Shown: in pieces, positions 22,334 through 24,339 of the stretch | Layout of the letters: every line of letters begins with the position of its first letter | Position numbering within the stretch: the first letter of the stretch is position 1 | DNA from: Algoriphagus yeomjeoni | GTDB taxonomy: Bacteria > Bacteroidota > Bacteroidia > Cytophagales > Cyclobacteriaceae | Reading direction: 5' to 3' | Length of the DNA: 64,000 nucleotides | Assembly (NCBI RefSeq): GCF_003259505.1 | Contig: NZ_QLLK01000002.1 | Location: 195,387 to 259,386 of the forward strand | Notes under the pieces: generated by a model | Database searches by the model: none | What the model was told of the DNA's origin: nothing | What the model saw: the letters and a program-made list of their open reading frames with translations, nothing else | Position numbers and translations under genes: made by a program

Positions 22334-22693
22334 TTACTTCAGAAAAGCTACTTCTGGAAAAGTGCTCAGGTAATATTCCAAATAGTTAAGATCTAATCCG
22401 ACGAAGTTCTCTCCTATAGGTGTTCCCTGTTTTATTTCTTGGACAATTTTATCCTTAGTGTAACTTTCACCATTCAATGTAGATACAAGCGCATTTTCCT
22501 CAGAGGACTGGTATCGTTTGATGGCAAGTTTGATCCGTGATCCCTTATCCAAATTAGTTAGTGGGTAGATTTTTTGCTCACCTTCAGCCACTTTATCATA
22601 ATAGATAAAGTCAGCGGTATGCGGATTGTAGCTGAGCGGTTTTACTTTAGCTTCTACAGCGATAGGCGGCAAAGTGATCTTTTCCATGGTCAT
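22334..22693 (-). CDS. Small protein homologous to the N-terminal domain of the adjacent caspase-like protease
   Basis: The 119-residue protein has no signal peptide or membrane segment and is not a family I recognise. It aligns with residues 1-110 of the upstream protease: both have an early TLP..A.E, KLAI at residues 55-58 with Arg at 60, a Y-x-K-x-x-(I/V) near 78, T-x-x-G near 91-94 and Y-x-EY near 104-107. Thus it is a free-standing copy of the protease's front domain without the catalytic part. It starts nine bases after a terminator-like hairpin, probably lowering its expression relative to the protease. It could be a partner, inhibitor, decoy or substrate; none is proven. Translation may start at either of two ATGs six bases apart. 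Confidence 0.7.
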   Translation of the reverse strand: MTMEKITLPPIAVEAKVKPLSYNPHTADFIYYDKVAEGEQKIYPLTNLDKGSRIKLAIKRYQSSEENALVSTLNGESYTKDKIVQEIKQGTPIGENFVGLDLNYLEYYLSTFPEVAFLK

Positions 22694-22702
22694 AAAAGTA
22701 AA

Positions 22703-22742
22703 AAATAGCAGTTGCTTATTTATAGGTATACAACTGCTATTT
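22703..22742 (-). terminator. Terminator-like hairpin between the protease gene and its small paralogue
   Basis: A perfect 12-base stem, AAATAGCAGTTG and CAACTGCTATTT, encloses a 16-base loop. On the minus strand the second arm runs into TTTTTT. It starts seven bases after the protease stop codon and ends nine bases before the ATG of the small gene, so it can act as a partial terminator or a leader structure. Confidence 0.7.
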
Positions 22743-22748
22743 AATTTA

Positions 22749-23861
22749 TTAAAAACGTCTAATAGTATAGTCAGCCAATGTCATATTGTAGAAAAGATAG
22801 GGCTGAATCTTGGCTGTTTTACTACCCCAGGCAATTCCGGACATGGGAGAACGCATCAGGTCACGGTCTTGCATTAGCAATGCTGCTGTAGTCGTTCCCG
22901 GTACAGATGCCATTCCTACATTAAACTGAGCAACAGAATCTGATACTGCCTGTTGCGCAGTCCGCCCAAGAGCCATACTTATATCGTATTGTGAGTCAGC
23001 TTTCCAAAAAAGGGTTGAATTTGCCCAGGTAAATGTGAAATTTTCTGTGTAACCCATAAAGGAAACTGCACCCTTGCTGACTGTATTTGGTCCCAAATCC
23101 CTTCCAGTTCTACAACTCAATAAGTGGATAGAGCTATGGTCAACTTCCGTAGGATCATATGAACCAACACGGATCAAGCTAGCATTGCCATGCCCGGTAA
23201 AATTATCATAATTCCCATGGCCAATACCACTGATATAAACCACGCGAGATTCCTTGGCTCTAGCAGCAAAATTTGACCTATTGTCATTCACACCAGTCAG
23301 TTTAATAAGTTCAAACCCACGATTTTCAAAGACTGGATGCACATTATTTATTCTATAATTTGCTACTTCGTTGGTGACACTATCCGTAGTGTTTTCACAA
23401 AATAAAACCTTATTGGAAAAGAGCTTCCACTGAGCTTTAGGAATGATTTTCCATTCTTTAGGGATAGTGGGTAAAGCTTCCGCTTTTGGCATCACAAATC
23501 GCAGAGAAGCAACCGGAATTTTACCCAGCATCTGATTCATCATATATTCCGCATACTTTACCTCTGCGTCTGCAATCTGCTTTCCAAAAGATGTTTGCTT
23601 TTCTATATGGGAAATCACCTCTGCTTTACTGTAAATACCCGCGTTGATGACACCGATCTTTAGATCTGGTTCCAACTTAATTCGCTGGATAGCAAGCTTA
23701 GCTTTGTTATCCTCAGAAGTAAGATCCAAACCGAATTTGGGAGGAATCCTTCCTGAGACGACTTCTTTGGCATACATCAGCGAGCCATTACCTCGTACAC
23801 CAATAGCTTTCTCTGCGGCAAAATCCGGAAGGGTAAGTTTGCCAAGTTTTACTGTCTTCAT
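22749..23861 (-). CDS. Caspase/gingipain-fold (clan CD) cysteine protease-like protein
   Basis: The 370-residue protein lacks a signal peptide. Residues about 1-112 are a domain shared with the next gene. Residues about 145-345 look like a clan CD peptidase: after the strand VVYISG comes G-I-G-H215-G-N, and after the strand IHLLS comes C250-R-T-G, followed by VSKGAVSFMGYTENFTF as in C25/CHAT-type enzymes. H215 and C250 would be the catalytic pair. It is separated by 55 bases from the small paralogue. Bacterial caspase-like proteases take part in programmed death, defence, and processing of secreted proteins. Here activity, substrate and role are unknown; the fold assignment is by motif only. 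Confidence 0.7.
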   Translation of the reverse strand: MKTVKLGKLTLPDFAAEKAIGVRGNGSLMYAKEVVSGRIPPKFGLDLTSEDNKAKLAIQRIKLEPDLKIGVINAGIYSKAEVISHIEKQTSFGKQIADAEVKYAEYMMNQMLGKIPVASLRFVMPKAEALPTIPKEWKIIPKAQWKLFSNKVLFCENTTDSVTNEVANYRINNVHPVFENRGFELIKLTGVNDNRSNFAARAKESRVVYISGIGHGNYDNFTGHGNASLIRVGSYDPTEVDHSSIHLLSCRTGRDLGPNTVSKGAVSFMGYTENFTFTWANSTLFWKADSQYDISMALGRTAQQAVSDSVAQFNVGMASVPGTTTAALLMQDRDLMRSPMSGIAWGSKTAKIQPYLFYNMTLADYTIRRF

Positions 23862-24339
23862 TTTGTAATTGATTTAGGAATTTTGCCTACTGTTAACGGT
23901 TTCGGCTATCCGTTACTAAATCGATTTATTCAATCGTATTTACTTAAAAATTAATCAGTTACTTAAAAATTTGCATCCGGGAGCAGTACCAAAATTAAAA
24001 CTATTTCAGAATTTTCAATTTCAATTTTTACTGATTTCAATGTCATTTTTAGGAGTACTCAATTTTTAGAAAAAAATAACAAATTAAGACCTTCATTTGC
24101 TCAACAAATTCTCCATTACCTTAGTCATCAGTGGGTTATAAAACTGATCCATTTAGCGATCACAGGGTTTACAAGGGTTCAAACATTCAAAAAAAATCTG
24201 GTTGGCTAAAGCCTTTGGCAGCTTCTTATAGTGCGCTATAAAAGAGAGGAAAATATACTTTATTCGTCGTCTAATCGCATTTGACTTTTTTACCTTGGTC
24301 AAATTATTGGTACATTCTACACAAACCAATTTTTGAAAC
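23862..24339. other. AT-rich gene-free stretch upstream of the protease gene
   Basis: No convincing gene is seen in 478 bases. A 13-base direct repeat TTACTTAAAAATT occurs at 23940-23952 and 23959-23971 (19-base period). An inverted repeat TAACGG/CCGTTA lies at 23894-23899 and 23910-23915. The possible protease promoter is at 23990-24018. The stretch separates two divergent genes. Confidence 0.5.
23990..24018 (-). promoter_or_regulatory. Possible promoter of the caspase-like protease gene
   Basis: On the minus strand TTG (24016-24018), 18 bases and TAATTTTG (23990-23997) fit the consensus. The leader would be about 120 bases and contain the TAACGG/CCGTTA inverted repeat at 23894-23915. Confidence 0.35.

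Follow-up and report, generated by a model that had tools for sequence, protein, structure and literature searches.

The window analysed here, a stretch of 64,000 nucleotides from Algoriphagus yeomjeoni, contains a two-gene unit of about 2 kb that encodes a putative protease and a small protein. Both genes are on the minus strand. The small protein resembles the N-terminal domain of the protease. The features of the two genes are as follows.

22334 to 22693, minus strand: small gene, 119 residues, a free copy of the protease N-terminal domain (open reading frame and homology)
22749 to 23861, minus strand: protease gene, 370 residues (open reading frame; orthologues with dN/dS of about 0.045 where calculable)
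22902 to 23423, minus strand: putative caspase-like catalytic core of the protease, residues 147–320 (family profile alignments and the homologue in vir519)
23112 to 23114, minus strand: codon of the proposed catalytic Cys250 (LSC), invariant in homologues and placed on the catalytic cysteine of CHAT, C25, and C14
23217 to 23219, minus strand: codon of the proposed catalytic His215 (GHG), invariant in homologues and placed on the HG histidine of CHAT, C25, and C14
23424 to 23525, minus strand: proline-rich variable linker of the protease, residues 113–146 (the least conserved region between orthologues, dN 0.09–0.27)
23526 to 23861, minus strand: N-terminal domain of the protease, residues 1–112, common to the small protein (BLASTP, profile–profile, and HMM comparisons)

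The two open reading frames, which are 55 bp apart, lie where an earlier note on this DNA had placed them. The motifs read in that note are also present: GIGH215GN and C250RTG in the 370-residue protein, and KLAI (55–58) with R60 at identical positions in both proteins. The true start of the small gene may be 22687 instead of 22693, because in the orthologues the small protein starts with MEK or MKK. No recognisable signal peptide was seen in the protease. From their sequences, we take the neighboring genes to encode a DtxR/MntR-type regulator, a TonB-dependent receptor, an amidohydrolase, and a dipeptidyl peptidase. Judged in the same way, none of the neighbors of the pair in the window is a defence gene.

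The small protein had been proposed to be homologous to the first ~110 residues of the protease, and the similarity is clearly above chance. BLASTP aligns residues 6–109 of the protease with residues 3–110 of the small protein at 26% identity (E 1e-7). A profile of the N-domain (n=5) matches a profile of the small protein (n=5) with a probability of 97.7% and an E value of 2.4e-12. In six-frame translations, the N-domain HMM picks up every small protein, with E values of 2e-13 to 2e-7; in the other direction, the small-protein HMM picks up every N-domain, with E values of 5e-10 to 3e-9. Neither HMM had another match at E<1 in the six-frame translations of the 64-kb window and the other loci searched. 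An AlphaFold model of the small domain, derived from six aligned domains, has an alpha+beta architecture with a pLDDT of 89.9 and a pTM of 0.83. A loop at about residues 61–80 is less rigid (pLDDT 75–79). By this confident model, the small domain folds on its own. Its best match in the PDB with Foldseek has an E value of 1.7, which is neither convincing nor proof of a new fold, and VIA-align returned one row with an unconvincing Z of 2.2.

Neither protein of the window matched a described family, in line with the earlier note. Both were without a Pfam family at E<=10 and remained below every family cut-off in Pfam/NCBIfam. PHROG gave no assignment of any weight for either, and PADLOC-DB, which covers known anti-phage defence systems, matched neither. 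Sequence-search matches in the PDB to a Fab, VPS75, archaeal RNA polymerase, and FeoB look like chance and were discarded.

Of the 72 Algoriphagus genomes covered by profile searches, four have the protease, with the small gene beside it each time. These are the genome of the window (G000, contig C2), G466, G020, and A. litoralis DSL-12 (G460). A fifth copy of the pair is carried by a viral contig. The genes are adjacent and in identical order in all five loci, a conservation that had been named beforehand as a check. Clear relatives of the protease were found neither among 395 genomes sampled across the phylum nor in the rest of 321 genomes sampled across the order. Plasmids gave no match, and among phages only vir519 matched. 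In the phylum- and order-wide searches, weak profile hits in G098 and G425 look like chance; a further weak hit, in G181, has a CHAT-like C-terminus below the Pfam threshold. Three separate observations were made alongside. A 699-residue open frame at L008:1-2100, cut at the edge of the locus, has a CHAT-like C-terminus (GTHGNYDHYTPH ... LNICDG) that is missed by the Pfam CHAT models. G036, a 4.1-Mb genome of the same order, shows a striking expansion with 46 CHAT-domain matches. In G045:C34:220161-242076, matches to C25, C14, and CHAT are clustered within about 22 kb.

The viral contig (IMG/VR, L006) is 5569 bp long and carries both genes in the order seen in Algoriphagus. Its protease is 42% identical overall, and its small protein 25–27%. 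Beyond the pair are genes that, from their sequences, we take to be HNH endonuclease-, terminase-, and portal-like. The large terminase has relatives of ~40% in many phages. The G+C content of the contig rises at ~2400 from about 0.35 to 0.60, and this position separates the pair from these phage-type genes. Given this jump, two origins are conceivable: a moron carried by a phage, or a chimeric contig. We considered an assembly artefact and rejected it for the pair itself, which is diverged and intact; the link to the phage genes may be such an artefact. The second viral homologue is a protein of the Caudoviricetes vir519, whose host is given as Methanofastidiosa. This distant archaeal-virus protein is homologous to the catalytic core (E 3e-4 / 3e-5) and lacks the Algoriphagus N-domain, which shows that the core can occur by itself. 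The protein itself, vir519_00054 (L005:4905-5651), is annotated as hypothetical and carries a hydrophobic C-terminal segment in addition to the core homologue.

The flanking genes indicate how the pair behaves in Algoriphagus. In G466, it is located between DtxR/MntR-like and amidohydrolase-like genes, as in the window. The same two genes are about 60–100 bp apart in G461, G482, and G472, where the pair is absent. Because the flanking genes adjoin each other in these pair-less relatives, the pair is gained or lost as one unit. G020 and A. litoralis retain the regulator flank, and their opposite flank differs. The A. litoralis protease is 84–86% identical to the other Algoriphagus proteases, as close as those are to each other; the regulator and TonB-receptor genes of A. 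litoralis are an outgroup at 70–77% identity. These comparisons are suggestive of horizontal exchange of the cassette, and they stay at that level because synonymous sites are saturated.

Residues H215 and C250, on whose conservation the earlier note had staked its reading, do not vary among the four orthologues, the homologue on the viral contig, and the protein of vir519, down to about 27% identity. Neither this check nor that of gene adjacency refuted the reading. The surrounding sequence follows the dyad pattern of clan CD: a hydrophobic strand followed by (G)HG, and then a hydrophobic strand followed by C. We compared the core with CHAT, C25, and C14 domains from related genomes, using 60 column shuffles as the control. 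The profile alignments are weak, yet all three place H215 and C250 on the HG histidine and the cysteine of the family. This register, together with the conserved dyad, bears out the clan CD marks that had been read in the protein. The CHAT profile scored best, at 24.4, above all 60 shuffles; the corresponding hhalign probability is only 6%. The C25 score was reached by one of the 60 shuffles, and the C14 score by four.

The proposed profile comparison thus placed the dyad in register, with CHAT in front, but all scores lie below the thresholds of the families. With CHAT (PF12770), the protease has a strand–helix–strand unit in common, and the HG and LS(A)C-x-TG motifs align. The CHAT HMM matches the A. 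litoralis protease with an E value of 6e-4 in a search of six sequences. However, the Pfam CHAT model recognises neither the window protease nor any homologue, and the window protease has no TPR repeats and carries an undescribed N-terminal domain. With C25 (PF01364), the GHG and the cysteine are in register, but the window protease has no match to the Pfam model and shows no secretion signal; the vir519 homologue reaches 15 bits (E 0.015) against a cut-off of 23. The caspases and metacaspases of C14 (PF00656) have the GHG ... Cys motifs in the same order and register, but the Pfam model does not match the window protease, whose profile score is not above the shuffles. We conclude from these alignments that the putative protease core resembles clan CD, with CHAT or C25 as its nearest families, and that it is outside all three families by their own thresholds.

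A core with a clan CD-like sequence pattern could also lack peptidase activity. No family model reaches its threshold, and the fold is unconfirmed, with a pLDDT of 45 for the AlphaFold model of the full-length protease (three sequences). Against this, the GHG (H215) and LSC (C250) motifs have been kept unchanged over the whole range of homologues, and we regard a protein that is not a protease as very improbable indeed.

Both proteins are under purifying selection. For the four orthologues, dN/dS is about 0.045 for the protease where it can be calculated and about 0.09–0.18 for the small protein. The N-domain of the Algoriphagus orthologues is as constrained as the core, and the linker varies more than any other part of the protease. 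The small protein evolves about twice as fast as the protease N-domain. Its faster evolution, its position as a dedicated adjoining partner, and its less rigid loop would suit a substrate that the protease docks through the common domain and cuts, releasing an active fragment. However, we found no conserved candidate cleavage site, and a substrate would not need homology to a domain of the protease itself. We consider this role improbable.

The intergenic region and the leader of the protease gene contain three further features.

22703 to 22742, minus strand: intergenic RNA hairpin followed by a T run, between the protease gene and the small gene (z = -4.8 versus dinucleotide shuffles)
23897 to 23913, minus strand: conserved leader motif ACGGATAGCCGAAACCG, about 36–52 bp upstream of the protease start codon
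23940 to 23971, minus strand: direct repeat AATTTTTAAGTAA, copies 19 bp apart, upstream of the protease

A strong hairpin separates the two genes at every one of the five loci (z about -4 to -6). The stem sequences differ between Algoriphagus and the viral contig, and a T run follows the hairpin in three of the four Algoriphagus copies. The hairpin probably either terminates transcription in part or stabilises the transcript, and the amounts of the two products would then be unequal. Rfam gave no match, and a promoter and terminator scan gave no excess; the scan missed the intergenic hairpin, whose loop exceeds the length limit of the scan. The motif ACGGATAGCCGAAACCG occurs exactly, as a single copy, in each of the four pair-bearing genomes among the seven genomes searched, and no exact copy is present in the three pair-less ones. 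The repeat AATTTTTAAGTAA has two copies in the window and in G466, and its conservation is poorer in G020 and A. litoralis. Unequal expression, as suggested by the hairpin, does not sit easily with a constitutive heteromeric enzyme or sensor in which the small protein is a structural subunit and has no switching role. The strict pairing and the common domain would suit such a pseudo-symmetric heterodimer, and nothing is decisive here. To us, it is a quite improbable arrangement.

Parallels to the layout of the pair have been described. In the principle of effector-associated domains (EADs), a terminal domain is present on a caspase-like protein and extra copies are encoded in adjacent genes (PMC7159879, PMC8195603). 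The pair agrees with the EADs of bacterial conflict systems in that a small terminal domain without catalytic function has a paralogous copy next door (PMC7159879, PMC8195603), so that copies of one small domain are found on several proteins of one locus. It differs in that the domain of the window has no Pfam family, the free copy has no fused effector, and the locus has no NTPase core component. A second parallel is SUB1-ProM, a stand-alone propeptide-like protein that is encoded beside subtilase genes and is a potent inhibitor of SUB1 (PMC6993865). In that system too, a free protein resembling the N-terminal propeptide of a protease is encoded beside protease genes (PMC6993865). However, those proteases are subtilases of a eukaryotic parasite, and the N-domain of the window need not be a cleaved propeptide. 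The earlier note had held that known families such as gingipains, CHAT, and metacaspases do not describe the pair. We found no described family for either component, but the architecture has known parallels, and the pair is less unprecedented than was thought because the EAD principle had already been described.

The EAD parallel raises the alternative of a homotypic adaptor. In this case, copies of the domain would bind one another, and the free copy would bridge, seed, or cap protease oligomers, a role that is attributed to EADs and to CARD-only proteins. The layout fits, with a small terminal domain on the core protein, a further copy nearby, and caspase-like peptidases among the known partners (PMC7159879, PMC8195603). 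However, the domain matches no Pfam model, its predicted alpha+beta structure has no convincing PDB match and lends no support to a death-like bundle, and the free copy has neither an effector nor a sensor, unlike the described EAD copies. The likeness to CARD-only decoy proteins drawn in the earlier note is accordingly a candidate analogy. We consider the adaptor somewhat unlikely. Both it and the substrate role fit the same sequence data as a trans-acting regulator.

Our preferred reading, which is tentative, is a two-gene accessory cassette. One gene would encode a cytoplasmic cysteine protease of clan CD-like (CHAT/C25-like) type, and the other a dedicated partner that acts in trans, was copied from the N-terminal regulatory domain of the protease, and most likely restrains it. 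The common domain, the strict pairing, the cassette behavior, the conservation of the dyad, and the purifying selection were counted as the basis of this reading. The predicted independent folding of the small domain, the lone core in vir519, the hairpin at all five loci, and the SUB1-ProM precedent also speak for it. A regulated enzyme with a trans-acting version of its own domain is the most economical account of these sequences. The N-terminal domain would control the catalytic core in cis. The free copy would use the same surface to bind the protease, and would either take the place of the N-domain on the core or pair with the N-domain itself. It would most likely hold the protease in an inactive state, from which a trigger would free the enzyme by removing or outcompeting the small protein. 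The intergenic hairpin would set the ratio of protease to small protein. The small protein more probably restrains the protease than relays a signal, because a free domain without an effector or a sensor adds little to a relay and suffices as an inhibitor. Because the distribution is accessory and patchy, our guess is a role in defence or cell fate; the neighboring genes, none of which looks like a defence gene, speak against it. A stronger proposal is that these caspase-like proteases of bacteria and phages form a family not described before. A dedicated, separately encoded, new-fold copy of their own regulatory domain would control them, and the two genes would act as a minimal switch for abortive defence or cell death. 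We hold this to be rather unlikely.

Many bacterial caspase-like enzymes are found in large multi-gene systems, in which their control is hard to dissect. The protease and its own-domain protein are a complete, removable unit, for which the pair-free relatives serve as natural controls. If the small protein does gate the protease, the pair would be a simple, testable model for the evolution of prodomain copies and domain-only proteins that control caspase-type enzymes.
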